Shown here: piece after piece, positions 32,776-61,330 of the stretch | Position numbering within the stretch: the stretch's first letter is position 1 | Layout of the letters: every line of letters starts with the position of its first letter | NCBI GenBank assembly: GCA_017893485.1 | Contig: CM030363.1 | Span: 115,234,004-115,298,003 of the forward strand | Length of the DNA: 64,000 nt | Direction: 5' to 3' | Origin: Hemerocallis citrina | Taxonomy: Eukaryota > Streptophyta > Magnoliopsida > Asparagales > Asphodelaceae | Program-made: the position numbers and the translations under genes | The notes under the pieces: generated by a model | What the model was told of the DNA's origin: nothing | The model's database searches: none | What the model saw: the letters and a program-made list of their open reading frames with translations, nothing else

Positions 32776-33031
32776 CAGTAATTACCACTCTAATTCAATC
32801 ATCAATTAATGGATGCGTTCATTACTTACTGACCACCTCTCTGCTCCCGCCATATTCAAAACCCCGTCTCAAATCTTTATCTCCTCAAATATCCCGCAAA
32901 ATATCCACCAATAGCACCCTAAACCTATCATTTCTACAAAGACAAAATTCAGTCACCTTAAGGGAACTTCATTTCTCGTCCATTAAACTGTTCATGCGGA
33001 ACGGCAGACGGGATGGTTCATCGTTCCTAAC
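32776..33031 (+). other. Unique flank with a possible exon remnant
   Basis: One plus-strand frame is open through 32790-33030 and reads Ser/Leu/Arg-rich sequence (KPRLKSLSPQISRKISTNS, FMRNGRRDGSSFL) resembling an organelle-targeting peptide. It has no start codon of its own and is cut by the hAT end at 33032. Identity unknown. Confidence 0.25.
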
Positions 33032-38166: not shown

Positions 38167-38935
38167 CTACACACACACAACAAAAAAGCGCAACATCAGA
38201 GTACCATCAAAAGTATACAAATAACATGAAATATAGTTTTTTTACTTTGCTGTTTTACAAATGATACTTAGATGAAGTGCTTGGGAATATTAGAGGAGAA
38301 CACCTCCTAGGAGAGGTCCGAATAGAGGCCGTGGTCAGACCTATAACCTGACTGCAGAAGAAGTAGAGACGGCCATTGACGTTGTAACATCCCCAAAAAT
38401 AATAAAATTTATTTTTCATATTTTACTCATGCATTGCACGTGCAATTTTAAAAAATGGCAATTTAATCCAAAAAGAATTTCCTAAGAATGATATCAATTC
38501 TCATTTTTATCTATGCTATTATTTTGATTTTTATTCCATAGGCCTAAAGTCTCTTTAAAAGACCAATAGAAAATTTATTAATTAAAAGATAAGCCACTAA
38601 TTAAAATAAAAGTCCATAGGAAACTAATTTCAAAATAAAAGCCCTTGATAAAATTTGATGTTAAAAATACTTTTAAATGTGTCATAGCACTTGTCATGTA
38701 ACAAACATATACAAATGGACTAATAACAAAAAAAATAAAAGAATGAGAAGAGTGTGCACATGTGGGAAATCCAAGAGTTGGCATATTCCAGAAGGAGATG
38801 AAGGGTTAGAGGTTTGTGTAGTAAATGGTGAGTGGGTGATTAATTTTGTTAATGAGTATTTAATTTTGGGTAATGGGTTTTTTAATTTTGGGTAATGGGT
38901 TTATTTTCATTCACCCAAATGATCCTATAAATAGC

Positions 38936-38943
38936 CCCTCCTA
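38936..38943 (+). promoter_or_regulatory. TATA box in the Del/Tekay-like LTR (first copy)
   Basis: TATAAATA in the context GATCCTATAAATAGCCCC. It is duplicated at 40611-40618 (GACTCTATAAATAGCCCC), so the LTR has two core promoters in tandem. Confidence 0.6.
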
Positions 38944-40610
38944 TCTCATGAAGAATTCACAAGAAATAAAAGAAAGAAACAACAGAGAAGAAAGAAAGAA
39001 AGAGAGAAAAGAAATAGAGTGCTTGGATTTCTTCAAGGAGGGCTTGAGCTTTACTTTGCTAGAAGGAGAAGGCTAGCATCTTGTTGGAGTTAGGAGCAAT
39101 ATTCAAGGAGTTCTTCCACTTTTCTTTCTTCAAATAAGGTGGGTGACTTCTTGAACTTTCTAAAATTTAGTATCATGCATGTGTAGGAAATTTGACATTT
39201 AGAATTGTTTATACATATGAGTGGTGGTTAATTTGTGATGATGATATTTAATTGAAATACGTGCTAATTAAAAGATTGTTATGTATATACGTTGAAATGA
39301 TATTGTTTGGGTGCATGGTAATACATTATATGAATTGGACATAAGTTTATACACAAAGTTACTAATTTATGCCAAAAAAAGTTACTGTTTTGAATTCTGT
39401 TTACACATCAGAAAATCGTATTTAATAAAATAGTCAGAATCTAGAACTAAACTTTTTGGGAGTATATTGTATGTGTCAGGAACATCCCTTTAAAATTCTA
39501 TAAGATTTGGAGACTTTTTACTATTTTAATAAAATCTAAACACAGAACTTGTTAGTAGTTTGACTGGTTGCTGGAAATCTGTACACATTTCGGTTTTTGA
39601 TCAATTCAACATTGCAAATGAAATCATTTGACAAAAGTCAGAACTAAGAAATTGTAGTAGACTCGTTAAATTTTTTGAAAATTCTAAGAAATCAAAATTT
39701 TCATAAAGAATTGAATTTATAATGAATTTTTCAAGAATGTACAATTGATAGTATTTCGGTATTTCGACCCTACTGTATATTTCGAAGAATTCAGAGTTAT
39801 AGATTCAGTATTTTGAGGAAACTTATAAGTAAGAAATTGTAGTAGACTTGTATACCTTTATTTTGATATAAAAAACAAAAAGTTTCGTGAAGTATTTTAT
39901 TTTCTATGATTTTTACAAATAGGATGAAATTTAGTTTTTTGACTTTGAATTTACTATTTTACAAATGATAATTAGATGAAGTGATTGAGAATATTATAGG
40001 AGAACAACTCCTAGGAGAGGTCAGACTGGAAGCCGTGGTCAGACCTATAACCTGACTGCAGAAGAAGAAGAGACGGCCATTGACGTTGTAATATCCTCAA
40101 AAATAATAAAATTTATTTTTCATATTTTACTCATGCATTGCACGTGCAATTTTTTTTAAAAAAAAGCAATTTAATCCAAAATGATTTTCCTAAGAATGAA
40201 ATCTATTCTTATTTTTATCTAAGCTATTATTTTGATTTTTAATCCATAGGCCTAAAGTCTCTTTAAAAGCCCAATGGAAAATTTATTAATTAAAAGAGAA
40301 GCCACTAATTAAAATAAAAGCCCATAAAAAACTAATTTCTAAATAAAAGCCCTTGATAAAATTTGATGTTAAAAATACTTTTAAATGTGTCATCGCACTT
40401 GTCATGTAACAAACATATACAAATGGGCTAATAACAAAAAAATAAAAGAATGAGAAGAGTGTGCACATGTGGGAAATCCAAGAGTTGTCATATTCAGGAA
40501 GGAGATGAAGGGTTAGGGGTTTGTGTAGTAAATGGTGAGTGGGCGATTAATTTTGTTAATGGGTATTTAATTTTGGGTAATGGGTGTCTCTTCATTCACC
40601 CAAATGACTC

Positions 40611-40618
40611 TATAAATA
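40611..40618 (+). promoter_or_regulatory. TATA box in the Del/Tekay-like LTR (second copy)
   Basis: Equivalent of 38936-38943 in the second unit of the tandem duplication, with the same downstream AG-rich leader (AAGAAATAAAAGAAAG). Confidence 0.6.
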
Positions 40619-41999
40619 GCCCCTCCTATCTCATAAACAATTCACAAGAAATAAAAGAAAGAAACAAAAGAGAAGAAAGAAAGTGAGAAAAGAAATAGAG
40701 TGCCTGGATTTCTTCAAGGAGGAGGGCTTGAGCTTTGTTTTGCTAGGAGCTGAAGGCTAGCATCTTGTTGGAGCTAGGAGCAACATCCAAGGAGTTCTTC
40801 CACATTTCTTTCTTCAAATAAGGTGGGTGACTTCTTGAACTTTCTAAAATTTAGTATCATGCATGTGTAGGAAAATTGACATTTAGAATTGTTTATACAT
40901 ATGAGTAGTGGTTAATTTGTGACGATGATATTTAAATAAAATAAATGCTAATTAAAAGATTGTTATGTATATACGTTGAAATAATATTGTTTGGGTGTAT
41001 GGTAATACATTATATGAATTGGACATAAGTTTGTACACAAAGTTACTAATGCATGCCAAGAAAAATTACTGTTTTGAATTCTGTTTGCACATCAGAAAAT
41101 CATATTTAATAAAATAGTCAGAATCTAGAACTAAACTTTTTGGAAGCATCTTGTATATGTCAGGAACATCCCTTTAAAATTTCATAAGAGTTGGAGTTCC
41201 TTTACTATTTTAATAAAATCTAAACCCAGAACTGGTTAGTAGTTGACTGGTTGTTGGAAATCTGTACACATTTTAGTTTTTGATCAATTCAGCATTGCAA
41301 ATGAAATAATTTGAGAAAAGTCAGAACTAAGAAATTGTAGTAGACTTGTCAAACTTTATGAAAAGTCCACGAAATCAAATTTTCACAAAGAATTGGATTT
41401 ATAATGAATTTTTCAAGACTGTACAATTGACAATATTTCAGTATTTTGACCCTACTGTTTATTTCGAAGAATTCATGGTTATAGATTTAGTATTTTGAGG
41501 AAACTTATAACTAAGAAATTGTAGTAGACTTGTATAACTTTATTTTGATATAAAGAATGCAAAGTTTCGTGAAGTATATAACTTTCTATGATTTTTACAA
41601 ATAGCATGAAATGTAGTTTTCTGACTTTGAATTTATTGTTTTGCTAATGATACTTAGATGAAGTGATTGAGAATATTTCTCACTATTTTAAGTTATATTT
41701 TTGGAAAAATAAAGATCATATTCATGCTTAGATGAGATGTGAACTTAAGATATATATATAAAATTAAAGATGTTAAGATTGATTCAAAATAAATTAAAGA
41801 AAAATGATGAGATCACTACAAGAAATTTGCCATATACCAACGGACACCTATAGTGACGGATCACTAAAACCGTGGGTATAGACATTGTATACCTACAGAC
41901 GTATAATAAGCTGTGTGTATAGGTATCCTATAGCTTTAGAGTTTTTAATCCGTAGGTATAGATTTAGGCTTTAGGTTTTTAATCCGTAGATGGAGATCT

Positions 42000-43114
42000 C
42001 TCTCTCTCTCCATCTCTCTCCTATCTCAAAACTACAGATCAAAACCCCCTCAAATCTCTTCGAAACCCTAAATCCCCAAAATAAAAATTTTCTCCCTGAA
42101 ATCTAGACCCGTCTCTCCCCAAAATCGAAACCCTAAATCCCCTGACAGATTGAAACCCTAAATCCCCAACAGATCGAAACCCATCTCTCCCCAAAATCGA
42201 TCGACGTCCTCTCTTTTTTTTTCACTCGTAGTCCCCCCACTACCATCCCACACTTCTTCTCCACCGACACTGGCTCCTCCAACAGTCGGTCTCTGCCTTG
42301 CTCCACTCCATCGACGAGCCCCCACCACAGCACCAGAGCCAACCTCGAACACCCACCTTTGCTGTGTTGTCTCCATCTTCACCTTTGCTGCATCCCGATC
42401 TGCCACCCCCTCTCCATTGCAGCCACCGTGCAATGCTGTCCCGTGCTGTTGTTGTTGTTGTTCTATGATGTGTTGCCGCTGTCGTGCCAGTCAGCTAATA
42501 TCTCTCCTTCCTTTCTTCAATCTCAAATTCCCTCTGTTTTATCTATTAAGGATTAGACAAACAAAGTTCCCACCTTTTTCAATCCAAAGAGAATTCTTTC
42601 AATGGAGGGGATACGCATTAGACCTCCACCTCCTAGGATTAGGGTTCCAATCTCAAAATCCAAATATTTTGAATGCAGGAACACCCTACCCTCCAAAGAA
42701 TGGGCCCCACCCATTTCAATGGATAACCAAAGGAATCTCCCAATTCTCCGCTGCATTACAGCTGAAGAGGTCTGCAATTTTTACGCTTATATGTTTTTTC
42801 ACGACTAGTTTGGTTGATGGGTTATAATCTGAATTTCTTAACTGTCTAGTTTGGATACACATTCCTCCCTTTATGCATAATAATTGGCCACAACTATTCC
42901 TGTCTTCATGTCTAACCGAGGTCGCCAGGTAATTTTGTGATAGATTTTCAGATATTTCATCACTCATATTATAGATGTCTCTTCTGTTTCCTCAAAATAT
43001 AGATGGCTCTAATGTATCTTCCATGACAGAAGGTTTCATTTGAATTTTGTTTAAATGTGTGTAGAATATTTGTATTTGACATGGTTGGTGCTTACAACAG
43101 AGTATTTTGTACAG
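42000..43114 (+). other. 5' interior of the CACTA element, unassigned
   Basis: 42000-42480 is a C/T-rich, leader-like sequence with repeats of AAACCCTAAATCCCC. 42550-42830 has an open frame (NAGTPYPPKNGPHPFQWITK) that could be another captured exon, but I do not recognise it. 42780-42865 is related, partly inverted, to 44380-44520. The rest is intron-like and leads into the first cryptochrome-DASH exon. Confidence 0.35.
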
Positions 43115-44401
43115 ATTGTTTGCTCATTTCTAGTTCGAGATATGGGTCTAGACTGGCGAATGGGGGCTGAATGGTTCGAGACCTGTCTCCTTGATTACGA
43201 TCCATGCTCAAATTATGGCAATTGGACCTATGGGGCAGGTAAGTGTTAGAAAATTTGCGGGGTTTCTCAAATGAAATTAGTATCAAAATGTAGAGAATGA
43301 GAGATGTAGAGATGTAGGCACAACACAAGAAAAAGTGAGTACACAAGATTTAATGTGATTCGGTCTAAATCAGCCTACATCCACGAGCGAAAACAACAAA
43401 TGATTTACTAATATCAAGTGAAGAATACATTACATTGATTACAAGACACCCACACTACCCCCTTAACAAGAGAGCTAGTCTTTCTCACTTCTTTTTATTA
43501 AAAAAAAGAGCTAATTTTCTCACTTCTTTTATTTTCTCATAAAGAAAATAATTTCACAATTCTCACAATAACTCTCTAACTCATGAAGTTCACTACTACT
43601 ACTACAACCAAGGACATCCTATGGGTATTCCACCAACAACATATGTTATTCACATGCTTAAAACCATGGTCAAGCATATGTGAATTATATGTTTAATAGT
43701 CATGGTAAAAGAACGCTAATGTGTTTCTTCCTTTCTTTCTTACCTCCGTTTTGGCCTTCTGTCATGTTAGATGAGCATGTTCTTCCAGACTGGAATTCTA
43801 AACATAATACTAATCCTAACCACTCGTAGGATAACAGAAACCAACTAGAAGAAGTTCTTCCAGACTGTAGTTCTGAACATAAATACTAATCTTAACAACT
43901 CGTAGAATGAGAGAAATCAACAAGAAGTTTACTTCTTAAAGGTTATATTTTGGAAATAATATATGCATAAGTAAGCATACATTTTTCTTTACATATCTCA
44001 GCTCAGTAAGAAAAACTACGAATTTGTAACTGTGTAGGTGTTGGCAACGACCCAAGAGAAGACCGGTATTTCAGTATACCAAAGCAAGTGAGTGCATCTG
44101 AAATCAAGAAAATCGCCTATAATCATTGTAGAACATCCAATTATTAATTGACCTCTATTTAGAGAAACTAAGCTCTCTGACATCGTACTACTTCATTTTC
44201 CAGGCGAGAACTTATGATCCTGAAGGTGAGTATGTTTGTTACTGGTTGCGGCAGCTAAAATCTCTTCCAAAAGAGAGAAGGAACTTCCCTGGGAGTTCGT
44301 ATATCAAGCAAGTTGTACCTTTGAAGTTTGGGAACACAAATCAAAGGCCTGATTACGGTAGAAATGCAAGAAGAGGAGGGAGGAATGTGTATCCAAACTA
44401 G
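43115..44401 (+). pseudogene. CRY3: Captured 3' end of a cryptochrome-DASH gene
   Basis: Three exons with intact GT-AG borders. 43115-43238 reads [17 protein letters not shown] and [18 protein letters not shown]. 44038-44087 reads VGNDPREDRYFSIPKQ. 44214-44401 reads ARTYDPEGEYVCYWLRQL, then KQVVPLKFGN, and ends RNVYPN and a TAG. Phases agree across both introns. This is the FAD-domain C-terminal end of plant CRY-DASH (Arabidopsis CRY3 type), an organelle-targeted photolyase-like flavoprotein. The N-terminal photolyase domain and most of the FAD domain are absent, so it cannot be a working photoreceptor. The last codons coincide with sequence repeated at 42842 and 44466, so the stop may come from filler DNA rather than the donor gene. 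Confidence 0.92.
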
Positions 44402-45237
44402 ACAATGCATAATAATGCATAATGTGTAATCTGACTAGTTAAGAAATTCAGATTATAAGCGTAAACTGTATCCAAACTAGACAATGTATAATAATGCATA
44501 AGTTTGGATACACATTTCCTTTTTTTGCTTAGGTAAACTGAATTTCTTAACTGTGGATTTGATGATTTTATTATTGTTCTGAATGATCATTTTTCAGAAA
44601 GCTAAACTTTCACCTTGTAGAAGTGACTCTTCCTTTGACGGTAACTGGTGCTAGTCCTTTTTATTGTGCTATTCATACTTGAGTTTATATTACCATTTAC
44701 TTATTGGTTATTACCATTTACTTTTATTATCTAACTGTTCTTTTGCGATGATGCAGGATCTTCGAAGCTTGAGTCACCATCATCTTGCATTTTTTCTTTT
44801 ACTAAACAAAACGACAAATGGAATACCTTCTTTGAAGATTTTTTGCTGAAAAAACTAAATGATAAAAAAAACATAATGAAAGAACATAATTAAGTGACCC
44901 CCAAGAAAAGGAATAATGAAGATTCAGATGTACATTTCTGTAGTATAATTACTAAACTGAAGGATCCATGCGTATGCCCTGTCTTCATTATCATTCCTGG
45001 TGAACTTACAGCTTGAACTGTGATGAAGTTTTCATTTACAAGTGCATTCTGACTTCCAATTCTTAACTTTGATGCTCTTGCCTGTTTTTGAATCTCCACA
45101 CAGTCCATAAATTATGTAAAATTGAGGAATTCATTTGTCCATTCGTATTAGATTAGAATTTGGTGTGGCTGGGACCACATTGTTTTCTTTGTCGTGCGCT
45201 TAATTCCTGACATGCTACTAATTCTCATCTATTGCAG
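44402..45237 (+). other. Filler and intron-like DNA between captured exons
   Basis: 44402-44560 repeats TATCCAAACTAGACAATG twice and carries an inverted copy of 42780-42850 (AAGAAATTCAGATTATAAGC). 44758-44850 follows GATGCAG and could be an exon (SSKLESPSSCIFSFTKQNDK), unidentified. On the minus strand 45108-45015 reads VEIQKQARASKLRIGSQNAL and ends at GTAAGT, also unidentified. 45110-45237 is intron-like and ends in the LKR/SDH acceptor. Confidence 0.4.
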
Positions 45238-45313
45238 GCTGACTACTATGAACATCCAGAACACTATGTCCCTATTTTTCATGAGAAGATTGCTCCCTAT
45301 GCATCTGTAATTG
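45238..45313 (+). pseudogene. Captured exon of LKR/SDH
   Basis: The exon has acceptor CTATTGCAG and donor GTGAGG and reads ADYYEHPEHYVPIFHEKIAP followed by YASVI. This matches a conserved internal exon of the plant bifunctional lysine-ketoglutarate reductase/saccharopine dehydrogenase, the first enzyme of lysine breakdown, from the LKR half. The phase (ends after the first base of a codon) fits the VNCMYW sequence that normally follows in the family. Only this exon and flanking intron sequence were captured. Confidence 0.82.
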
Positions 45314-45688
45314 GTGAGGCTGTTGTCTATTGTCATCCTTTCTATTGATATCTTTGTTTCTTTATTCCTCAATTGTTTAAAATCAATTGTTGAAGCAGCT
45401 TCACAAACTGCATGTTAATGTCATATCCATGCCCCCCTCCCTCTCTTTCATTTTCACTTCTACAGGAAGTAACTTTGCTTTTTTAATGTCGTGGAAATGT
45501 GCTTGAGCAAGACGGTAAACTATCATCCTATATTGGTGATGTAGACATCAATGAAAAACTTGATTGTGTTTTATTTATTGCAGGTTAACTAATGTTAATG
45601 AAGAAGGGCATCTTTATGGGGTTTCTGGAAGCTCGGGAGGTTATGCTGAAACGGTTTTTCGCCACGTTGCTAAAACCATCTTTAATAC

Positions 45689-46306
45689 TGTTACCGCTAA
45701 ATCTGGTGTGGGGGTAAACAGATAGTATTTGTGGATTCGTGAAAATCCTGAATAGCAAACCTCTAACCTGTTCCGCCAGAGATTGACCGTTGACTCCCGC
45801 CGTTAACCTGCAAAAAGTGCGAGACACCGGGGTTGATCCCGGCGACGCACCCTCCGACGCTCAAGTCAATAATCAGAAATGATTAAGAAAGAGCGTAAAT
45901 TGAGAAAATACTCATTACCTCTCAATGGAGATGGATGGGGGGTATTTATAGGCATCTTTGGGACTGGATTAGGAATGTAATCCCCGTGATTAGATAAGGA
46001 ATATTCTCCTAGTCATCAGATAAGGAATTGAATCCCTAATTCCCAGTGAAAAGATAGATGTAAATCAGGGCCGTTGATTAAGATCTAATCAGGGACCTTG
46101 ATTGTATCTTGCTGGATCGGGTGTGCAGCGGATTGGAACCCATACCCAGTTGACGTGGATCCGTTCATGGGTTATTGGGCTTTGAATAAAGACCCTAGTT
46201 CCCATTTTAGACCCGTTTGTAGGTGAAATTACCGTTTTACCCCTGAGCTTTAAGATTCGTGTCCGATGTGAACGGTCCCGATTTAATCCCATTTTTAGCC
46301 ATATCA
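45689..46306 (-). repeat. 3' LTR of element C (618 bp)
   Basis: On the minus strand it starts TGATATGGCTAAAAATGG and ends AGCGGTAACA. It matches 53152-53768 with about eight differences, including one single-base indel (GACCCTAGTT versus GACCCAGTT). Confidence 0.93.
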
Positions 46307-46745
46307 CGAGCCCCCCGACTCCTAGAGACTGAGTTTTTTCAGTCTTTGAGGAGTAGTTTTACTGTTCTAATGGCGTACGGGATTTTATCGGTGTTCTTAA
46401 GGGAGTTTGGATCTTGCTCGGGGGTGTAATGGTGTTATTCTGGGCTTGTAAAATACCCAAAAATGTCCTCAGAATTTTCTGGATTTTTGGTGATTTTTCC
46501 AGATTTTTCTGAATTTTTCCTCATTTTTTGAATTTTTTATTCATTTTCCGAATTAAATAATTAATTATCGAAAAATATTAAATAATTATTCTAATTAAAT
46601 AATTATATTTCTTAGAATTTAAAATAATTTTTCTGAATTTATAATTATTTTTAGAATTTTTATTTAATTTTTTCCGATTTTTTAAATATTTTTTCGGATT
46701 TTTTAAATAAAAAAACAATTAAATAATTAAATAAATAAATTAAAG
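46307..46745 (-). other. Polypurine tract and AT-rich 3' noncoding region of C
   Basis: On the minus strand GGAGTCGGGGGGCTCG abuts the LTR. 46323-46745 matches 1335-1744 of element B (CAGTCTTTGAGGAGTAG, GATTTTATCGGTGTTC) and is otherwise AT-rich. Confidence 0.75.
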
Positions 46746-49340
46746 AATACCTGGACACGTGGCGCGATCGTGTGCGTTGATCACGATCAAGCGAGGGCGC
46801 ATCGGGAGGAGAAAGAGGAGGCCATTTTTTGGTGTAATAGGATCGGTGCCATGAATGCTCGGCAAAAGGTGGCCGAAGTCTACGAGGGCGACACGTGTCA
46901 AGTCAACGTTTGACCTTTTTTTTTTTCTTTTCGCTGCAGTTGCTGTCGTATTCTCTCTCTTCTCCTTCGTCTGGTCCCTTTCTCACGCTCTCGCCCCTCC
47001 TCCCTTCTTCTTCGTTTTCTCCGTTCGCGAGGTGCGAGATGTCCACGAAGTGGAGCTCGATGGAAGAGCTCGGAGAGAGGGAGAGCTCGGAGAGTGGGAG
47101 AGCTCGGCAGCTTCGGTAAGCGAGCTCAGTACTGGGTTCGGCGTCGGAATGGAGCTCGACCATTGATTCTAAGGACGGAGCTTGCATAGTTCGGAGCTCG
47201 TCGAGGCGGTGACGGAGCTCGACTGTGGGAGAGCTCGACGTGGTGGTGAGCTCGATGTTGGTGAGCTTCACGACTTCGATAGCGGGGGACCTCGACTGCT
47301 GTGGCGAAGAGGTCGACGGAGCTCGGCGGCGACGGTGTGGAGCTCAAGCTTCAGCCATGGGAGAGCTCGGCGAGGAGATGAGTAGAGTTTGGCTGTCGAG
47401 GGAGATAGCTTGATGGTGGCTCGAGCTTGACGATGGAGCTGTTCGGTTGAAGATGACGAGCTGGTCGACGACACGGTGGTGTCGAGGTTGAGGAGAGCTC
47501 GGTTGCCGACGGGGCTTGGCTGCGAACAGAGGTCGCGTCGTGGAGGAGCTCGTGGTTCGAGCGCGGGTGGAGCTCGAAGTTGAAGGTGTTGACGATGTTG
47601 GGTTTGAAGCTTGCGAGAAGGTGACGAACTGTATTGTGTTATTCGGTTTTTACTTGGGTTTGGCGCCAAAGTGGCTTGAAGAAGAAGGGGGTGACGTGGC
47701 GGTTTGGTTTGGGTTCGGGTCCTCTTGATGGGTCCGAACCCGACCCCTTGTGTTCCCCTCGTCATTTTTTTTTTGGGGTCTGTGCTGGTGCCGAACTCAA
47801 CTGGTGCAGAACTCAAGCCCGTAAAACGGTCGGTGTCAGGAACGCTCGGCAGATGGTGCCGAACTCAACTGGTGTCGAACTCAAGCCCGTAAAACGGTCG
47901 GTGTCAAGAATGCTCGGCAGCTGGTGCCGAACTTAACTGGTGCCGAACTCAAGCCCGTAAAACGGTCGGTGTCAAGAACGCTCGGCAGCTGGCCGAAGTC
48001 CACGTGGGCGACACGTGGCGAAGTCAACGGTATGCGTTGACCCCCCCCCCCCTTTTTTTTTCTTTTTTTGTTTTTTTCTCGCCAGGTCTGTTTCTTCTTC
48101 TCCTTCGTTGGTCTTCTTCGTCTTCTCTTTCGTTTCTCTTCTTCGTCCTTCGCCAGCTCTCGAGAGCGTGCTCGAGCTCGGAGCTTCTGGACCTCGGCAG
48201 CGGAGCTGAATGGAGGGGACTCGACGTCGGAGCTCGCGGGGGAGGTCGACGGGGAAGCTCAGAGCTCGGACTTTTGGAGTCGAGGTCGGGAGCTCGCGGA
48301 GCTTGATGAGGCGATGACGGCTTCGACGAAGGAGAGGGAGTGATATGGGGTTCTTGGCACACTGAAGGAGAGAGGAGTCCGGAGCTGTGTTCGAGCTCGT
48401 CGGAGGTAGAGCTCGATGGAGGTGAGCTCGGCGTCTTGGTCGGCATTGGTCCGGCGAGGCCTGAGGTTGAAGATGAACTCGGAGATAACGAAGCTCGACG
48501 AGGGAGACGCCGAAGGCAGCCGGCAATGGAGGGGAGAGCTCGGTATTGGAGATGGAGCTCGGTTGTGGGAGAGTTCGACGCAGAGTTTTGTGATGACGGA
48601 GCTCGACGACTGAATGAGCTCGTCGGAAGTGGAGCTCGACGTGTTGGAGCTCGGCGACGACGATGATGGAGCTCGTGGTTCGGCCATGGCGGTTGGTGTG
48701 TTGCTCTTGGCGAACGCCGTCGAGCTCGAAGGTGACGAGCTGTTTTGTGAAGCTCGGAACATGGCCATGGAGGTGGTCGAAGCTTGAGGCTTTGTTGATG
48801 AGGTCGACGAGTGGGTTCGGCGTCGGAGGCAGGAGACGACGGAGGGGGGAGCTCGAAGGTGACGAGCTGTCTTTGATGGAGACGGAGATGTTCAGTGTCG
48901 TGGGTTTCTCGGAGGTGAGCTCGGCGGCGGAGGCATTCGGCCATGGTGATGGAGCTCACGAACGACTGCGTTCGACGACGACGTGGAAGGTGTGTTCAGC
49001 GGAGCCCAAGGTCGAAGGAGGTGGCTTCGTTGGAAGTTGGCGACTGCGTGAGCTCGGTGACTGCGTGAGCTCGTGGCATGGAGGTGGCGAGCTCGTCGGA
49101 CATGGAGCTTCGGGGGGAGACGACGTAGAGCTCGTCGAGGCGGTGTTGGGTTTTGGAGAAGAAGGAAGAGCTCTGTTTTTCTTTGTTCCTCGGTTATTGT
49201 TTTGTTCCTTGGTTTTTGCTTTGTTTGCTTGGGATTTGCGCCAAGGTGGCTGAAGAGGAAGGGGAGGAGAGAGAACGGGTTTTGGGTTCGGATCTTTAAT
49301 GGGTCTGAACCCGACCCTATAGCCCCCCTTTTCTTTTCTG
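46746..49340 (-). repeat. Two GAGCTCG-rich modules of element C
   Basis: Module 1 (46746-47770) and module 2 (47995-49340) have the same order: ACACGTGG motif, T/C tract (46915-46990 and 48039-48150), GAGCTCG-rich body, GGCGCCAA or TTGCGCCAAG, then GGGTCCGAACCCGACCC-type end. The 47780-47995 join consists of three 67-bp units. Element B has one module. Long open frames on both strands reflect composition only. Confidence 0.72.
47780..47995 (-). repeat. 67-bp tandem units, first block (3 copies)
   Basis: GCCGAACTCAACTGGTG...CCCGTAAAACGGTCGGTGTC recurs three times between the two GAGCTCG modules. Confidence 0.8.
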
Positions 49341-49569
49341 TGTCATTTGTATATGAGCCGTCGATCGCATTTGAGCACGGATTCCGAGGTAGAGACTTCC
49401 CTTTTCATTTTGAGCTCCGATGGCAAGTTGCTTCGGCAACGTTGCCGACCCTCTTCAAATATGTGTTAAGAAGGAGGCCGAAGCCCAGGGGGGTTCGGGG
49501 TTTCCTACCGAGGTGTAGAGATACTTCGGTGTGACGACATATGTAGAGAGGAAGTTCGGCGAGTCTTTG

Positions 49570-50010
49570 CCGGGGTCGGTGTCAAGATCGCTCGGCAGCG
49601 GGTGCCGAACTCAAATGTGCCGAACTCAAGCCCGTAAAACGGTCGGTGGCAAGAACGCTCGGCAGCGGGTGCCGAACTCAAATGTGCCGAACTCAAGCCC
49701 GTAAAACGGTCGGTGGCAAGAACGCTCGGCAGCGGGTGCCGAACTCAAATGTGCCGAACTCAAGCCCGTAATATGGTCGGTGGCAAGAACCTCGGAGCGG
49801 GTGCCGAACTCACGCCCGTAATACGGTCGGTGTCAAGAACGCTCGGCAGCTAGTGCCGAGGCTCGAGACTTAGAAATTTTTTGGAGATCTTGACTGCCGA
49901 ACTCAAGCCCGTAATATGGTCGGTGGCAAGAACGCTCGGCAGCGGGTGCCGAACTCAAGCTCGTAAAACGGTCGGTGGCAAGAACGCTTGGCACGGGTGC
50001 CGAACTCCAA
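49570..50010 (-). repeat. 67-bp tandem units, second block (about 6 copies)
   Basis: ACTCAAGCCCGTAAAACGG starts at 49624, 49691 and 49758, then in shortened forms to about 50010. It is the same repeat as 47780-47995. The segment 50030-50300 that follows matches 3544-3790 of element B. Confidence 0.8.
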
Positions 50011-50299
50011 TTTTCCCTGCAGAGTTCTTCTTGATATTCCCGGTGCTACGGAGGTCGGCTCGGGGCGTACGACCCCTTGTTTCGAAGCTAATCCGAAGAT
50101 CTACAACTTCTCTTCAGGAGTGAGATGAAGATTCACCCTCTTTCATGGTCAAAATAGCCCCGCAACATCCTTGTCTTCATGAAGTTGAGGAGTGTTTTGG
50201 TCGTGGGGATTTTGGAAGAGGAGCTCCACTCCTAGGGGCGGAGAAGCTGTGCTGGGAAAAACCCTTGTGCCCAGAAGACCCTTGTAAGAGCCGTGGGAA

Positions 50300-51000
50300 G
50301 ACCCACTCTTTGAGGTTAGCAGAGCGAAGAGCTTGACTCTGGGAGAGAGCCCTTTGTGAGACGAGCTTGAGGAGCGACCCAAGGAGAGAGTGGTGAGCTC
50401 CGAACTCATTGAGAAGAGGTCCGCTTTTGGAGGCGAGCGGAGCGAAGAGCTTGACTCTGGGAGAGAGCCGTTTGGGAGACGAGTTTGAGGAGCAACCCTA
50501 GGAGAAAGTTGTGGGCTCCGAACTCGTTATTTAAGTGAGGGAACCAACGGTTGTGGGAGCAATTCCGAATGGCGAACCACTTCTAGCTCGCTTAACAGCG
50601 AACTTGCGAAGTAGAATCGAGCCAAGTGTTGGACTCCGGAACCATCGTTAGAAAAGTTCAACGGCTGTGGGAGCAATTCCGAATGGCGAACCACTTCTAA
50701 CCTGCTTAAGAGCAAGTTATTCGAAGCAGAATCGAACCAAGTGTTGGACTCCGGAACCATCGGTAGAGTTGTTCAACGGTTGTGGGAGCAATTCCGAATG
50801 GCGAACCACTTCTAACCCGCTTAAGAGCAAGTTATTCGAAGCAGAATCGAACCAAGTGTTGGACTCCGGAACTATCGGTAGAGTTGTTCAATGGTTGTGG
50901 GAGCAATTCCGAATGGCGAACCACTTCTAACCCGCTTAAGAGCAAGTTATTCGAAGCAGAATCGAACCAAGTGTTGGACTCCGGAACCATCGTTAGAGTT
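50300..51000 (-). repeat. 115-bp tandem arrays, types I and II, of element C
   Basis: About two type I units (GAGGAGCGACCCAAGG, GAGGAGCAACCCTAGG) are followed by four type II units with ATTCCGAATGGCG at 50562, 50676, 50791 and 50906 (114-115-bp spacing). The order and orientation are as in element B, but with fewer units. Confidence 0.92.
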
Positions 51001-51219
51001 TAGTGAGTTGCGGGAGGAGCCATGTAGAAGAAGCTGGACTCCGAAATCACCATTTAACGAGTCGTGACTCGGAGAGATTGAGATGACGCAAGAGCAACAA
51101 TTTCCAATGAAAAAACGTAAAGTTTTATTGAAATAAACTAAGTGGCTGCTTCAATAGGGCGAGCCATTATTACATGCTATTGGCCGGGTTACAAGCATCG
51201 GTCTTATTGAAAATCAAAA

Positions 51220-53080
51220 TCCTACTTCTACGATAAGGTGAAGACCTCTTGGGAGGAGCTGGGAGGTTCTGAGTCTTGGAGCTCGCCGGTCCCTTCGGTT
51301 TGTTTGTTGGCTTCTCAGAGAGGAAGCTCGGCCCCCTCTTTTTGGATGAACTTGGTCAGGTGTCCCCGCTGTACGAGTTCTTCGATCTCCTCCTTGAGAG
51401 CCCGACAATCATCCGTATCGTGGCCGTGGTCCCTGTGAAAGCGGCACCACTTATCTTTGTCCCTCTTCTTACCAGGGGTATTCATTCTAGGGGGAGCGCG
51501 GAGTAGTCCTTCCTTGTCCACCTCCATAAGGACTTCTGATATATTAGCAATGAGGGGGGTGAACTTCTCAAAACGTGGAGTCGAACGGCGCTGGCCATTA
51601 CTGTCCTTCTGGGATTTTTGGGACCCCTCTTTGCTTGTGCTCTTCCGTTTGTTCCCGGAAGATGTCTCCTCAAGAGTAGGGGGGTTGAGAGCCTCTTCGG
51701 CTCGAATGTACTTTTCACACCTGAGAAGGAGGTCGGCAAAGCTCTGTGGAGGCTTCTTAGCAAGAGAGGAACGAAGGCTGGAATTGAAGACATTCGATTG
51801 GAAGGCGGCCGTTGCGACGGATTGGTCGAGGGAGGCCATGGACCTGACCTCCGCAGTGAACCTCTTCACATAGTCTCTTAACTTCTCACCTTTCTCTTGC
51901 CTGAGCTGGAGGAGTGAGATGCTGGTCTTCTCCGTGCGCCTGCTACTCACGAAGTGGGTGATGAATAGTGTTTCGAACTGCTCGAAGGAGAATATGGAAG
52001 ACGGGGCGAGGCGGGAGTACCATTCCCGAGCCGAGCCCTTGAGAGTAGCAGGGAATGTCTTGCACAGCAAGGGCATCGGAGGCTTGGTGGATGAGCATGA
52101 GAGTCTTGAAGCTCTCAATGTGGTCAACGGGGTCAGTCTCCCCGGTGTAAGTCTCAAATTGGGGAGGTTTGAAGCCGAACGGCACAGGTGCATCCACAAT
52201 GGTTCGGGAGAAAGGGGGTCGAGTAGGACGTAGGGTCCTCCCCCTAAGCTCTTCTTCTCGACCTATCTGACCCAGGCGCCTCTCTACCTCATGAAGACGG
52301 CGATACATGGCGTCGTCCCTCCGACGGTAATCAGCCGAGCCTCTAGACTCGTCTTCGTAGGAGGGAGAGCGAGGGCTGCGGCGATGGTAACTTCGGGAGC
52401 GACGAGGACTTGGGGTACGCCGGGAGTTGGTAGGAGCGGGACGAGGAGATGGGGACCGTCGGCGAGGGCTTCGGACTGGAGGAGGGGACGGGGCCTTCGG
52501 CTCATTAGGGTTTTGACGGAGGTTGAGTGCCTGTTGTACCATTGCTTGGAACTGCTGGAACTCGGCACGGGTGATTGGTGCCTCATTGTTCCTGGGCTGT
52601 TGCCGATCTGCGAGGGAGTGCCTCCTTCTGTAATGCTCGGGGGACTCCCTCCTTCCCCTTCGGACAGGGGATCTTCTGTAGTCTCGGCGGTGAGGGGATC
52701 GCTCACCCGGACGTTGTTGGCGGGAGGCTCCCTCTCGGGCCCGCTTCTCGTCCAGACGGTGGCGTAAGTCCTCCACCTTCTGCCGGTTTTGAGGATTATG
52801 AGAGGCCATGGAATCCATAGAGGCTTTGTGTATGGAGACGCGGTCTTGATGGAGAGGTTGCTTCATGCGGGAGCCCCCCGCACCGGCATTCTGAGGACCG
52901 GTGGGACCCTTGGGGGGTTCCTGATTCTGAAGAGGAGGCTGATCTTGTTGAAGAGGGTCCTCCACTTGAGGCGGGGGTTGTCCCTGCTGCGGAGCGGGTT
53001 GGACGGGGACTACCTCTTGCTGATCGGCGGGGTTAGGGCCCGCGGTTGGACCCTCTGGACCTGACTTTTCTCGGAGGCAT
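51220..53080 (-). pseudogene. gag: gag of element C (nearly intact)
   Basis: The first ATG (53080-53078) gives MPPRKVRSRGSNRGP and a stop. The main frame opens at 52965 and runs 340 codons: an Arg/Ser/Pro-rich N-terminal part with EDESRGSADYRRRDDAMYRR, then PPFSRTIVDAPVPFGFKPP. A single extra base near 52065 shifts the frame; the rest (PATLKGSAREWYSRLAP, FTAEVRSMASLDQ, the knuckle-like WCRFHRDHGHDTDDC) is in the second frame to 51315, ending in a Pro/Ser tail near 51220. Retrotrans_gag core and knuckle are both present. It is the best-preserved Gag in the window. No protease or RT follows, so any movement would have needed pol from a relative such as element A. Confidence 0.9.
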
Positions 53081-53130
53081 GGCTGGAGAAGATCGGACCA
53101 ACGGGAGGAGGGGCTACTATTCGTTTGGTG

Positions 53131-53148
53131 TTCCCACAGACGGCGCCA
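53131..53148 (-). other. Primer-binding site of element C
   Basis: On the minus strand TGGCGCCGTCTGTGGGAA begins three bases after the 5' LTR. Identical to element B's site. Confidence 0.85.
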
Positions 53149-53151
53149 ATC

Positions 53152-53768
53152 TGTTACCGCTAAATTTGGTGTGGGGGTAAACAGATAGTATTTGTGGATT
53201 CGTGAAAATCCTGAATAGCAAACCTCTAACCTGTTCCGCCGGAGATTGACCGTTGACTCCCGCCGTTAACCTGCAAAAAGTGCGAGACACCGGGGTTGAT
53301 CCCGGCGATGCACCCTCCGACGCTCAAGTCAATAATCAGAAATGATTAAGAAAGAGCGTAAATTGAGAAAATACTCATTACCTCTCAATGGAGATGGATG
53401 GGGGGTATTTATAGGCATCTTTGGGACTGGATTAGGAATGTAATCCCCGTGATTAGATAAGGAATATTCTCCTAGTCATCAGATAAGGAATTGAATCCCT
53501 AATTCCCAGTGAAAAGATAGATGTAAATCAGGGCCGTTGATTAAGATCTAATCAGGAACCTTGATTGTATCTTGCTGGATCAGGTGTGCAGCGGATTGGA
53601 ACTCATACCCAGTTGACGTGGATCCGTTCATGGGTTATTGGGCTTTGAATAAAGACCCAGTTCCCATTTCAGACCCGTTTGTAGGTGAAATTACCGTTTT
53701 ACCCCTGAGCTTTAAGATTCGTGTCCGATGTGAACGGTCCCGATTTAATCCCATTTTTAGCCATATCA
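53152..53768 (-). repeat. 5' LTR of element C (617 bp)
   Basis: TATA box TATAAATA at 53413-53406 on the minus strand. The outer end TGATATGG abuts AATAC (53769-53773), the target-site duplication. Confidence 0.93.
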
Positions 53769-55139
53769 AATACATTAGAAGTAAGTTTATTTTTAAGAGT
53801 TTATACTTACTTTCATTAGTGATTTATTTCCTGATATGTTACATGGTTTTCTTTTTTCGTAGATTGATGGTAAAATGGTTTTGAGATTTGTTCTGTGCCG
53901 AACAAGTTTTCTTTATTACCCTTCGCTGAATGTGCCTAATAACTATTCCTTTAATTTTTTGATGGTACAGGAACTTGCTGAGATGATTTCAACATTGTAG
54001 ATCAGAGTTATTTATTGGCGAGTTGTAGATGTACACTATTTATTGGCAATGGAAGCTAATTTTCTGTTGATGGAGCAAACCTCGAAATTAAGTGGATGAG
54101 ATTGTTATAAGACTTTATATGCTTATTATATGTCAGTATGGTACTCTTAGGTTGACATTTTAACTATTTTGTAATTTGAATTTGACATGCTTGTAATACT
54201 TCATTAATTTTTAATATGATTGAAGTTTAATTTTATTTAATTTTATTTCATAAACACATGTATTTATTTCATTGTGTATTTGGTTTATAATTGAATTAAT
54301 ATTATAAAAGAAAATATTAAATTATCATAAGCGTAATTAATAAGAAAAAATTGTGTATAGAGCGATGGGTATATATTCAAATAATTAGATGCGAAAACCA
54401 TCCCTAAAACCTATAGCAATGGAGCTTCAACCGTGGGTATAGGAAAACAAAATGTGTCTTTAAAACCTATACCAACGGATACGAAACCGTGGGTATAACC
54501 CCAAGGTTTTGTCCAACGGGTGAAAAAACCGTCGCTACAGGCTATAGTGACGGCATTTTGCCGTGGGTATAGCTAATTAAAAACGACGGAAAAAAATGCC
54601 CGTTGGTATAGGTTTTACGGGCTATACCTACGGTTTTTCGCCTTTTACCCACAGATTTTTGCTGTCACTATATGTCAAATTCCTTGTAGTGGATGAATTT
54701 TCAATGATGAATTCTTAAGAGATTATGTTTTAATCTTAATTAACTTGTATTGAGAAAGTTTTGATGAATATGATAAGTGTATTGTGAAAATGAATAGTTT
54801 GAGATTGTACTTATTGATGAATAAATAAGATGAATGAAAGAATTTGAATAAAATATGAATACATGAAAATGGAGAACATGAGTAATATAGGGTAGAGTAT
54901 CCCAAGTTGTTGAACATGAAAGATGTTGATTCTAGAGGCTTAGTGAGACCTAGGTTCCGGCAAAGAAATGAGAATGAATAATTGATTTTGAGAAAGGGTC
55001 AGTATGGGATATCGTTCTTGGTGTATGGTTTAAGACTGGTAGTAGGGTAAGCTAGCTCTAGGTAGTATTATTCAATCATGTTTCAAACATAAGGACATGC
55101 ACTAGTTGGTGACATGATGAAACTAAAGCAAACATGAGT

Positions 55140-55984: not shown

Positions 55985-57956
55985 AGCATGGTTGTAGGCA
56001 TATCTTAGTACACTCTTTCCCTGTTCAACATTCTGTTTTATTCTGGTGCTACCCACTCCTTCGTTTCTTTCTGCTTCGTTGATCGGCACTATTTGGCAAG
56101 CGACGTCATGTCAGCAGCCTGTAATATCACAACAGGTGGAGGCATCATTATTTATTCTAGGGTGTGCAAGCAGAGCCCTTTACTGATTAGTGACATGGAT
56201 TTTAAGGCCGATCTTATCGTGATCAACAATTCTGAATTTGATGTTATTCTCGAGATGGATTGGTTGAGAGTTACCCATGCCGTGATTGACTGCCGAGAGA
56301 AAAAAGTAGTGTTCAAGCTTCCAGGTCACCAAGAGTTTGAGTTTCATGCGGGTGAGACACCATTTGGGCGTCTCAAGAGCTCTATGAACTAGAAGGCTAG
56401 TGTACTAGAGTCGATGTGCACTGATGGTGAAGTTGCACCCATGGTTGTGCAGGATTTTCTTCATGCCTTTCCAGAAGAATTGCCCAGGTTTCCACCAGAC
56501 CGAGATTTATAATTCGGTATTGAAGTTCAACCGGGTACGACACCAATCTCGAAGAGTCCGTGCCGAATGGCACTAGTTGAGTAAGCCGAACTAAAGGTAC
56601 AAGTCCAAGAGTTGTTGGATAGGGGTTTTATCAGGCCAAGTGTTTCACCTTGGGGAGCCCTGATTTTGTTCGCCAATAAGAATGATGGTAGTCGCAGACT
56701 CTGCATTGATTATCGAGAACTGAATAATGTCACCCTGAAGAACTGATACCCACTATCGAGAATTGATGACCTGTTTGACCAGCTTGGAGGTGCTTCAGTT
56801 TTCTTGAAGTTGGATCTTCATTCAGGTTATCATCAGGTTAAAGTTAAGATCGAAGAAATCCAGAAGACAGCATTTTGCACGAGATATAGACATTACGAGT
56901 TCTTAGTAATGTCATTTGGAGTCACCAATGCACCAGCTGTGTTCATGAGCCTGATGAACAGGGTATTCTCGCCATTTTGGGACTAGTTTGTGGTGGTGTT
57001 CACATCCTGGTGTATTCTCAGAACAGGGAGAATCAGCTTTATGGGAAGCTCAGCAAGCATAAATTTTGGCTTGACCATGTCAAATTTCTGGGCCATATTA
57101 TCTCAGGTGATGGAATTTCAATTGATCCGTCGAAGATTACTGCAGTCAAGGATTGGCCGGTACCGAAGTCAGCATCAGAAGTGTGAAGTTTTCTCAGATT
57201 AACTGGTTATTATCAGAAGTTCGTTCAGGATTTCTCGAAGATTGCTAGACCCCTACCATATGACGAGGAAAGAACAAAAGTTTGTTTGGGATGGAGCTTG
57301 TGATGAAGCCTTCATTGAGTTGAAGAATCGGTTGACATCAGCACATGTGCTGACTATACTAGACACTTCATGAGGTTTAGTGATTCACTGTGATACTTCT
57401 GGCAGAGATTTAGGTGCAGTGCATATGCAACGAGGCAGAGTTGTCGCTTATGCATCCAGACAGTTGAGGCCACATGAGAAGAACTACCTTACACATGATC
57501 TTGAACTTACAGCCAGTCTCCACCTTGAAGTTATGGAGACATTATCTGCTTGGGGTTAGGATTGAGATTTTCACAGATTATAAGAGTCTCAAATATGTAT
57601 TCACACAAAAGGAGTTGAACATGAGGCAGATAACATGGTTGGAGCTAATGGCAGATTATGACATCAACTTACAATACCACCCGGGCAAAGTGAACATGAT
57701 ACCCGCTGCCATGTTCCTTACCGAGCAGAAAGAAATATTGAAGGATATGGAAAGACTGGATTTGGATGTGAATTTTTTCGGTACAACACATCAGTGTATG
57801 ATGTTGCAGTTGCAGTCTTCATTGGTAGAACAGATCAACGAAGCCCAAGTAGGTGATCAGCAGTTACAGAAATTCCGAAGCGAAGTGGAAGCAGGCTTAA
57901 TAACTGACTTGATCATTCATACAGACGGACCGCTGAGGCAGATTGTGTGTACCTAA
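55985..57956 (+). pseudogene. pol: Protease, reverse transcriptase and RNase H of the Del/Tekay-like element
   Basis: The protease begins with GATHSFV near 56050 and has FDVILEMDWLRVTHAVIDC (family usually ILGMDWL). RT spans about 56400-57250: [26 protein letters not shown], and then at the catalytic site the frame goes from FVVVF straight to ILVYS, so the aspartate pair is deleted. FLGHIISGDGISIDP and PVPKSASEV follow. RNase H is at 57250-57720 ([41 protein letters not shown]). At least six stops or frameshifts are present. Gag is missing upstream. Confidence 0.88.
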
Positions 57957-58029
57957 GGGGGAAATCAGGCAGAAGCTACTTGCAAAAGCCCATCGTTCAC
58001 CATATTCTATTCACCCTAGAGGCACAAAG

Positions 58030-59542
58030 TGTTAGGTTTTGATGGTAGTCTCAGATCAAATACACAATGGAAAAATTACAAAGAAATATCGAAACATAGC
58101 CATGGATCCATGCAAAAACCATAAATCGTGTTTAGGAGTTATACCTTGAAGATGGATCTGCTGTCTCCAATGAAGGTCGATCATAACACTGCAATATTGT
58201 TGTGCCTCTACGGTATCCACACGAACGGGTCAAATCAAGCTTTCCCTCACGCCACGGTGCTAGCTACGGAAAGGGGATATTCCTCATGATCTCTCTCTCA
58301 CAATTTCTGTGACTGCTAGGATTTTATCATGTAACTCTTTTTCACAGATACCTATCATATATATAGCTACAGAAAATCAACCCTAAGAGAGTAATGAGGC
58401 TGTTAGACTCATAATCTAACCTGGTTCAGATTCATGTGTGGGCCTTTGAACTTTAGTTAGTCCATTTAATCTAATTAAATGTCCAACCAATATCAGGAGT
58501 CCAAGTCTTACTTAGATCCCCAATTAAATTCATCTGTTGAATTTAAATTTAAATTTCGATCCATTCTAAGTGTGTGACCCTCTGGTTCTCGTTACGTTGA
58601 CAGTGATACTAAAATCATATTCTAGTATTACAAACAGTGAGCGGTATCTCGCAATACATCACTGCTACTCAAGTAACGGGAATGTCAGTGATTAGACATA
58701 ACCTATTCATGACCAATGTTTCCATGTAGTCTAATCCCTTCGTCCAGATATCTTAATTGACCACAAGGCGTAGAGCGTGTCACCCTTGTATAGTTCAATC
58801 TTTGGTTTCTTAATATCCAAGTACACTTACTAAAACAAATGAGCTCAATATCTCATATTGACTCATTTGAGCATGGCCATGCATTTTGCAGTCTCACTCA
58901 ATCAAGGGTCCCATAGATATCGCTCCTGTTATGTAAGACAGACAAATCATATCTAAGTCACTTACATCCCTCTGCATGATTTGTAGTATATCCAACAGTC
59001 GACTTTATAATCAGATTATTACAGGCAACATTTGAAGACATTGAAACATATAACTTCTCATGTAGGGAACCGTAGTGACTTCAAGTCAAAGGACTACATA
59101 CACTATGGTCACTGTGAGAACCGCTTATGACACTCATGTAACGATCCATGCAGTGTTCTTATGGTGGGTTAGTCCAGTACATTATTACTCTAATATGTAC
59201 CCAATTGAAGACTTAATGTCTAATATCCATGACCCATAAGATATGGTCATCAGTCTACACACATACTAGTCTCTATACATAATTGTTGTCCTAATTCATA
59301 ATAATACTTGACTAGGGACATTTAAGAATAGTGTTCTGATTACAACCAATGAGATCTCACAGTCAAGTCATGCACTTGATATCCCATGGTATTTAACCTA
59401 CTATTCTAAGGACTTTATTATGTTCATTTAATCACAATAAACAACATAATAAATGAAATGCCTCATATATGAAATAAATATCATGATACAATGTAAACTA
59501 GTAATATCTATACACAACAGGCCTCTAGGGCATACACCAACA
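58030..59542 (-). mobile_element. Copia-type solo LTR (1,513 bp)
   Basis: On the minus strand it starts TGTTGGTGTATGCCCTAG, a start seen in many plant Copia LTRs, and ends AAAACCTAACA. It is flanked by CAAAG on both sides (58025-58029 and 59543-59547). No internal region is present, so the element was reduced to one LTR by recombination. It interrupts the integrase HHCC domain. Confidence 0.87.
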
Positions 59543-60194
59543 CAAAGATGTATAAAGATCTGAAGCAGAAATTTTTTGGTGACACGGTATGAAGATAGCA
59601 GTGGCGAGATTTGTGTCTCATTGTTTGGTCTGTCAGCAAGTGAAAGTAGAGCATCAGAGGACCGCTGGACTCCTTCAGCCTCTTCCAATTCTGGAGTGGA
59701 AATAGGAGAAATTTACTATGGACTTTGTGATGGCATTGCCAAGGAGTCCCAAAGGTCACAATGCTATTTGGGTAATTGTAGATCGTTTAATGAAGAGTGC
59801 CAATTTCACCCCATTTAGAGCGGGTCAATCTACAGAGAGCCTGGCTAAGAAGTATATACAGGAAGTTGTGAGACTGCATGGAGTTCCTGTCAGCATCGTA
59901 TCGGACAGAGATACGAGGTTCAGGTCCCAGTTTTGGGAGATTCTTTAGAGGAGTTTGGGAAGTAGGTTGAACTATAACACTGCATTCCACCCACAGACAG
60001 ACGGGCAGTCTAAAAGGATGATTCAGACCCTGGAGGACATGTTGAGGTCTTGTGTTCTTCAGTTTGGAGGTTCTGGGGAAGATCATCTGCACTTGATTGA
60101 GTTCTCGTACAACAACAGCTATCAGGCGGGTCTTAAGACAGCACCGTACGAGTCACTCTATGGTTGCAAATGTAGATCTCCAGTCTGTTGGGAT

Positions 60195-60781
60195 TAGCAC
60201 TGGTATAAATACTCGATACCCGGACCTGGCATTAGACCGGAATCGACCCGGTCTATACGGGTCCGGGTCCGGGTCCGGTTCCGGGTCCTAAAATTGGACC
60301 CGTTGTGCTTCCGGGTCTGCTTATAATAGGCTCGACCCGGACCCGAACCCGTTAAAAAAACATAATAATACATAAAAATCGGGAAAGATATGGACTTTGA
60401 TACTAATATGATATGGACCCGGACCTGTTCAAATCTCTTTCTTCTTACTAATATGATACTAAGTTTCTCGAATCATGATATTGATGACTGATTGTTTGAT
60501 ATTTAGTGGTTTATGCATTCAAATTTACTGTATCTGTATTTCTATATGTAGATGTACATAAAGTTTAGGAGAAAATTTTTTGTCCCCAAGAAGAAATTGA
60601 ACTCGTCTGAGTTGGAAGTAACTAGTTTTGGACCCGTACGGGTAGGAAACTTTTAATAAGACCCAGACCGGAACCGGACCCGGTCCTCACGGGTCCGGGT
60701 CCGGGTCCAATTTTTTGACCTGTAAGGGACTGGGTCCGGGTAGTGAAGGACCCGACCCGACCCAACTCGATACCATTTCTA
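60195..60781. mobile_element. hAT-type MITE (587 bp)
   Basis: The ends are TAGCACTGGTAT and, inverted, TAGAAATGGTAT. The flanks are the identical 8-mer GTTGGGAT (60187-60194 and 60782-60789). Subterminal regions repeat GGGTCCGGGTCC. No ORF was seen. It interrupts the integrase of the chromovirus remnant. Confidence 0.87.
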
Positions 60782-61330
60782 GTTGGGATGACATTGGCAA
60801 AACAAAACTTCTGGGGACTAAGTTGATCGCGAAGATAGTTGATGCAGTACCTCAGATCAGGAAGCACTTGCAAGCACCTCAAAACAGGTAGAAGAAGTGG
60901 GCAGATTGTCATCGAAGGCCTTTCGAGTTTGATGCAGGCGATCATGTATTTCTCAAGGTATCACCATGTAGAGGCGTTATCCATTTTGGAAGTGGGGGCA
61001 AGCTAAGTCCCCGATTCATCGGTCGGTTAGATATTATGGAACGAGTAGGCAATGTAGCTTATAGGCTCGCACTGCCACCGGCATTATCTAAAATTCATGA
61101 TGTCTACACCAGGGATGACAGTCATGTGATCGACTACTCAAGAGTTGTCCATGAGACCAGACTTATCATGCGAGATCCCACCATCTCTATCTTGGACAGA
61201 TGTGAGAATGTACTGAAGAATAAAGTCATCAAGCTTGTTCGTATCTCATGGGATCCTCACTCGCACGGTGAGTCGACTTGGAAACTTAAGGAGGAAATCG
61301 AGAAGAAGTTCCTTCATATCTTCGAGTAGG

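Follow-up and report, generated by a model that had tools for sequence, protein, structure and literature searches.

A Pack-CACTA element of Hemerocallis citrina with DNA of three unrelated host genes and templated borders around its CRY-DASH cargo

Background

How does a transposon come to hold pieces of several unrelated genes, and do such pieces do anything once they stand side by side? This question is raised by a 64,000-bp stretch of the Hemerocallis citrina genome (assembly GCA_017893485.1, contig CM030363.1, positions 115,234,004 to 115,298,003 of the forward strand; the whole stretch is hereafter called the window), in which a CACTA element contains DNA of the CRY-DASH, LKR/SDH and NAR1 genes. 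A sequence-only reading of the window had described it as a multi-donor 'Pack-CACTA' from which a read-through transcript could join exons of all three genes. The data presented below lead us to suggest, with a probability of roughly 0.8, that the cargo was built from the outside inwards, that CRY-DASH entered through template-switch repair, that transposition and insertion of a long terminal repeat (LTR) retrotransposon followed, and that the gene pieces are passengers.

The locus is of general interest, as published papers disagree on how Pack-type elements acquire gene DNA: for plants the proposal is that neighbouring copies fuse, and for animals that a broken element is repaired. The mechanism of Rubin and Levy is said to be abortive gap repair. 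In the available excerpts of the literature, Rubin and Levy are cited for the mechanism of CACTA capture (PMC8978399), the model of Catoni et al. is given as fusion of two neighbouring copies (PMC8903248, PMC13317346), and gap filling is tested in animals (PMC8277862).

Results

Structure of the element

The element is a non-autonomous Pack-CACTA with DNA of three unrelated host genes (Table 1). Its termini, CACTACAAG starting at 41814 and CTTGTAGTG finishing at 54691, match at 21 of 23 bases, and GAT stands on either side as a 3-bp target site duplication (TSD). The clear CACTA ends and the GAT duplication reported from the letters alone are thus borne out, as they are by the subterminal motif CCGT.GGTAT, all nine copies of which (64 kb, both strands) fall in the terminal 187 and 342 bp of the element. 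In 50 first-order Markov sequences generated from the window, the motif occurred 0.24 times on average and at most twice. Neither CACTACA nor CCGT.GGTAT, searched in their exact forms, was found within the element away from its tips. A candidate second CACTA end at 62809 was rejected, none of the nine motif copies being located there. Without the nested retrotransposon, the element measures 4793 bp. Its assignment to the Pack-CACTA type rests on three observations: no Pfam match to a transposase was obtained among the open reading frames (ORFs) and joined exons scanned, a set that did not include every small ORF; host-gene DNA is present whose donors lie elsewhere in the genome; and the element has been mobile together with this cargo, as indicated by a sister copy (L021).

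Table 1 Features of the CACTA element and the native genes used for comparison (window positions)
Feature	Position	Strand	Details
CACTA element, Pack-CACTA type	41814-54691	+	12,878 bp with nested insertion; TSD GAT at 41811-41813 and 54692-54694
5' tip common to family	41814-42211	+	40 matches scored, window included, of 1938 host-genome candidates; sharing stops at 42211 in 9 of 19 fetched relatives
Older cargo	42583-42828	+	Holds 56-aa ORF 42602-42769; common to L025, partly L024, and the sister
Left filler	42830-42884	+	CACTA copy, then inverted and direct CRY-DASH gene-end copies; 53/55 bases in exact 12-mers or longer
Captured CRY-DASH DNA	42885-44437	+	Part-exon a (to 42928), b 43115-43238, c 44038-44087, d 44204-44401, introns included
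Right filler	44438-44514	+	Inverted CACTA pieces, direct and inverted CRY-DASH gene-end copies; 73/77 bases in exact 12-mers or longer
Older cargo	44515-44867	+	Sharing begins at 44515 in L022, L023, L024, L025 and L032
Captured LKR/SDH DNA	44868-45433	+	Exon 45238-45313, AG and GT borders kept; native gene on C6 (L055 plus L057)
Captured NAR1 DNA, interrupted	45504-53898	+	Exon a from 45584, 60-bp in-frame loss, intron, exon b 53863-53898
LTR retrotransposon, nested, with gag domain	45689-53768	-	LTRs 45689-46306 and 53152-53768; TSD AATAC at 45684-45688 and 53769-53773
3' tip common to family	53936-54691	+	End found in 15 of 19 relatives, from ~54100 on; 13 of 19 at 53958
Native NAR1 genes	L052-L054		Comparison set for captured NAR1 piece

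Donor genes

Donors with the same introns, proposed as a check in the sequence-only reading, were found for all three genes in the host genome (3.78 Gb, 701 contigs). The CRY-DASH piece is a 1.55-kb DNA copy matching the end of the host CRY-DASH gene, introns included; its exon d, the last one, finishes with the native stop. The copy differs from the native genes L042 and L043 by 17 substitutions in 1546 bases and 16 in 1529, respectively (1.1%). These two genes, one on contig C625 and the other on C10, are 15/1528 apart, and CRY-DASH-like coding matches go on upstream in both. Among 42 matches of the CRY-DASH query in the host genome (40 candidates scored of 170), near-full cover was seen in four, namely, the window, the sister and the two native genes. 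At the protein level, matches were found to PDB 2j4d (E 6.2e-65), to the Pfam domain FAD_binding_7 (E 1.3e-28) and to plant CRY-DASH proteins. The exons had been placed at 43115-44401; the gene and its strand were recognized correctly, and the extent was incomplete, the copy being longer on both sides and including one extra part-exon, which has a small change just inside the left border. The long intron contains a dispersed repeat (43244-43429) with 34 further host matches at ~74-81%, and the same repeat is present in the native genes. An ORF at 42602 was considered as CRY-DASH exon 1 and rejected: when compared with 120 CRY-DASH hits, it gave no more than three chance matches of six residues. 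Likewise rejected was a fourth donor, for which exons had been considered at 42602, 44598 and 44757; these have no relatives, and the last of them runs into the LKR copy. Protein and Pfam searches with the 56-aa ORF 42602-42769 gave no relative.

The LKR/SDH piece differs from the native gene on C6 by 11 substitutions in 465 bases over 44969-45433 (~2.4%), and exon and flanking introns together are 97.4% identical over 466 bp. The exon is too short for firm protein statistics: in PDB, only three matches were obtained up to E 10, all of them alpha-aminoadipic semialdehyde synthase with E 0.079-0.096, and there was no Pfam match. Its identity is decided by the host's own C6 gene, and the piece lies on the plus strand, as assigned from the letters. 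Downstream in the C6 gene lies an exon reading VNCMYWEK, which we take to be the next LKR exon. A second place with an LKR-like pattern, on C11 (L056), had no match to the CACTA element in 701 bases, and a third lies on C1.

The NAR1 piece is far more diverged, with 28/177 and 23/125 substitutions relative to the native gene L052 (16-18%). In the protein search, 21 of 22 candidates were found at E up to 1e-3 (best 2.7e-15); PF02906 was present in 21/21, many of which are named NAR1. The fragment alone had no match in PDB or Pfam. In the host, the native exon series forms three clusters on C3 and a fourth on C228, which is more than one might expect. Outside this series, NAR1-exon pieces occur in at least 60 places (88 candidates scored of 197), of which 39 reach query residue 376-378 and 21 end at 340-341; some lie within the fetched CACTA relatives (e.g., C1:423765651 in L022). 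The in-frame loss of 60 bp was seen in all 11 compared relatives that cover that place. Thus, the assignment of DNA from 45584 onward to NAR1 on the plus strand was correct in identity, while its extent has to be revised to two exons, minus 60 bp and minus the retrotransposon, with a start at 45504 and an end at 53898. The statement that GT-AG borders are kept is valid for CRY-DASH a-c and LKR but not for the second NAR1 exon, which has no donor site because the capture border falls inside it.

The retrotransposon, overlooked by the sequence-only reading, is 8.08 kb long and sits antisense in NAR1 exon a; relatives with an unoccupied site define its borders. Aligned over 616 bases, its two LTRs differ by 7 substitutions and a single gap, and PF03732, a gag domain, was detected on the minus strand (E 9.4e-15; three ORFs in or touching the retrotransposon scanned). 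Elsewhere in the window, four stretches (739-1320, 8487-9053, 22675-23238 and 23317-23900) are related to these LTRs at ~71-75% (listed pairs) and are 93-94% alike among themselves.

Relatives in the host genome and probable order of capture

In a search for other copies, also proposed as a check, 40 matches to the 5' tip were scored, the window among them (Table 1). The best 19 of the 39 matches besides the window were compared, with 9901 bases fetched for each. Both CACTA ends were found together in 15 of the 19, and identical flanking triplets in 12 of these 15. One of them is the sister L021 on another contig (C9), which is 4814 bp long, is flanked by TGC on both sides and carries the whole cargo without the retrotransposon; 45 differences were counted in 4788 bases. 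The donors, the two-ended relatives and this sister at another place together support the multi-donor Pack-CACTA proposed earlier. A one-base loss in CRY exon b of L021 causes a frameshift.

Sharing among the 19 relatives is highest at the tips (5' tip in 19, 3' tip in 15), lower for NAR1 exon a (13, of which 10 whole) and LKR (10, of which eight whole), and lowest for the CRY-DASH core (one). Since sharing declines from either tip towards the centre, the cargo seems to have entered from the outside inwards. The 15 two-ended relatives, 3.5-7.5 kb in length, have other DNA in the middle and are therefore not simple deletions. Taken together, position and sharing suggest that NAR1 was captured first, followed by LKR and then CRY-DASH. 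The divergence from the donors, which is 1.1% for CRY-DASH, 2.4% for LKR/SDH and 16-18% for NAR1 (LKR vs NAR1, Fisher p 3.6e-9), agrees with this apparent order. In the tree of 3' tips, the window is grouped with L021, L022, L024 and L032 (support 0.955). Two relatives (L034 and L037) have an open frame of 139 aa that, we presume, resembles plant methylesterase; on this likeness, the family may have captured other donors as well.

Borders of the CRY-DASH cargo

Four relatives (L022-L025) possess a different stretch of ~1.3 kb, ~99% alike, that runs to the base equivalent to 44515, i.e., the right border of the CRY-DASH slot. In L024 and L025, this stretch begins at 42829, which is the same left border as that of the slot, and its last 124 bp are also present in L032.

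The CRY-DASH copy is separated from the older element by two fillers. The left filler consists, in order, of a 17-base copy from the right side of CACTA, a 28-base inverted copy of the CRY-DASH gene end and a 12-base direct copy; the right filler starts with two inverted CACTA pieces (15 and 12 bases), continues with a direct and then an inverted copy of the gene end, and passes into the old element. In this arrangement, common to the window and L021, exact words of at least 12 bases from the donor or CACTA account for 126 of the 132 filler bases, compared with a mean of 4 and a maximum of 63 for 1000 random window pieces of equal length and a maximum of 38 for 1000 shuffles. At the CRY-DASH borders, to which this analysis was confined, five of the nine joins overlap by 1-3 bases. 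Because the borders are patchworked from the donor end and CACTA, they fit break repair with repeated template switching. The 28-bp inverted repeats around CRY-DASH were also considered as the ends of a small transposon; this was rejected because the right repeat belongs to the end of the native CRY-DASH gene, and the left repeat copies it in inverted form.

Surroundings of the element

In the window, a pair of direct repeats, each ~780 bp long and 97.7% alike (28092-28869 and 31994-32778), encloses hAT transposase sequence, recognized by a minus-strand Dimer_Tnp_hAT match at 29714-30463; a long ORF upstream of this match, reaching to 31882, had no Pfam match. A 1.8-kb tandem duplicate (38216-41677, 90% alike) ends ~136 bp before the CACTA insertion, and 56009-61329 holds Ty3/gypsy-like retrotransposon pieces on the plus strand with protease, RNase H and Tf2-1-like SH3 domains.

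Discussion

Which course of events would produce such an element? Judging from donors, relatives and divergence, a CACTA family with conserved tips would first have taken up a NAR1 piece, which is old, and then LKR/SDH further inside; CRY-DASH would have come last, replacing ~1.3 kb of the element's middle. The structure of the borders suggests that this last step was the repair of a broken or excised element, in which the repairing strand may have copied CRY-DASH, switched several times between the end of the gene and CACTA, and then returned. The finished element would then have moved, presumably by transposase in trans, yielding at least one sister copy, and the LTR retrotransposon would subsequently have entered the NAR1 exon.

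An alternative origin of the CRY-DASH cargo is that two neighbouring CACTAs on either side of part of the gene lost their inner ends and moved as one (the model of Catoni et al. in the excerpts of PMC8903248 and PMC13317346). In these excerpts, fusion likewise predicts new cargo on the inside and common tips, as observed here, and it may hold for the older capture steps. For CRY-DASH, however, we regard it as improbable: the borders contain inverted and repeated copies of the donor end and CACTA, no inner terminal inverted repeat (TIR) or subterminal motif is left in the exact forms searched, and both borders fit one older element whose middle was replaced. It is harder still to accept that the full-cargo element is ancestral and the relatives are its deletion derivatives. 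The relatives do have less of the middle in common, but the two-ended ones contain other DNA there, ~1.3 kb of it common to four relatives, and the CRY piece is the least diverged from its donor.

Several points weigh against the sequence of events that we favour, outside-in assembly with repair at the CRY-DASH step. For NAR1, a closer copy among the unscored candidates could be the true donor. The difference in divergence between CRY and LKR is not significant (Fisher p 0.067), overlaps of 1-3 bases at joins commonly arise by chance, and the 3'-tip tree leaves the order within the closest group undecided. The relatives were picked by 5'-tip likeness, which makes the sharing curve a non-random sample; for four of the 19, no 3' end showed within the fetched 9.9 kb, and three of the 15 two-ended elements have unequal flanking triplets. 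LTR divergence (7/616) is about that of the two CACTA copies (45/4788), and the numbers therefore do not establish that the retrotransposon was inserted after these copies split; the empty site of the sister implies a later insertion only on condition that the sister does not predate it. Finally, no autonomous partner was identified for the family.

Another important question is whether the element could be an expressed chimeric gene, in which read-through would combine the light-signalling, lysine and Fe-S exons in one transcript and yield a functional product. The three pieces do lie on the plus strand, as had been claimed; the chance of one orientation is 1 in 4, and the arrangement is therefore no signal in itself. 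The window copy and the sister alike retain intact splice borders at CRY a, b and c and at LKR, the join of CRY exon c to LKR is open and in frame, and chimeric splicing has been demonstrated for soybean Tgm-Express1. Nevertheless, such a gene is very improbable here. The other five of the six direct exon joins tested run into a stop by the third codon, CRY d is closed by its own stop, NAR1 is short of 60 bp and split by the antisense retrotransposon, and CRY b of the sister is frameshifted; of six ORFs scanned in the partly annotated CACTA flanks, four match transposon domains and two match nothing. Hence, of the earlier interpretation, the multi-donor Pack-CACTA stands, and the read-through fusion is weak. 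From the reading frames, a working protein fusion appears unlikely; by analogy with Tgm-Express1, chimeric splicing of RNA is possible; and the gene pieces are most probably functionless passengers.

The value of the locus lies in the presence of the donor, the before-form and two after-forms of one capture in a single genome, and one step can therefore be read base by base. The same reading can be tried on the other relatives, which carry other cargo. It is conceivable, though we hold this tentatively and as somewhat less probable than its opposite, that most cargo steps in the family beyond CRY-DASH also arose when breaks in the middle were repaired with serial template switching, and that the elements are layered records with the oldest pieces near the ends and the youngest in the centre. 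If this is true, each layered element would be readable and datable against living donor genes.

The combination of genes itself looks like a chance product of little importance. It had been thought undescribed: our literature search found no account joining CACTA and cryptochrome DASH, and the terms CACTA, saccharopine and transposon gave only Tol2 in frog (NAR1 was not searched). The kind of element, a multi-donor CACTA, is nevertheless well described, and both such elements and their chimeric transcripts have already been published for soybean. In the excerpt of PMC1947982 (Zabala and Vodkin), Tgm-Express1 carries pieces of five unrelated host genes, and 12 different transcripts were isolated, most of them with captured exons. 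Both elements belong to the CACTA superfamily and hold several unrelated host-gene pieces with introns and splice sites; Tgm-Express1, however, sits in an expressed gene and its chimeric transcripts have been shown, whereas the present element has three donors and an inner retrotransposon. According to the part of PMC3260210 available, maize Ds elements with filler DNA are similar in that intron-bearing gene pieces lie in a cut-and-paste element and the donor was found, but they belong to the hAT superfamily and have single donors. The animal Pack-TIRs attributed to gap filling and template switching share filled gaps within the element and few-base overlaps at joins; as far as the excerpt of PMC8277862 goes, they are mainly single copies, in contrast to the present plant CACTA, which kept transposing. 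There is also a likeness to the Pack-CACTA and other Pack-TYPE elements of Arabidopsis, maize and rice (PMC8903248, in excerpt), which have TIRs, TSDs, host coding DNA, several loci per element (most of all in maize Pack-CACTAs) and newer cargo inside. The difference is that here the donors and the sister occur alongside one slot's pre-capture form, and the borders of that slot are templated filler rather than a fusion.

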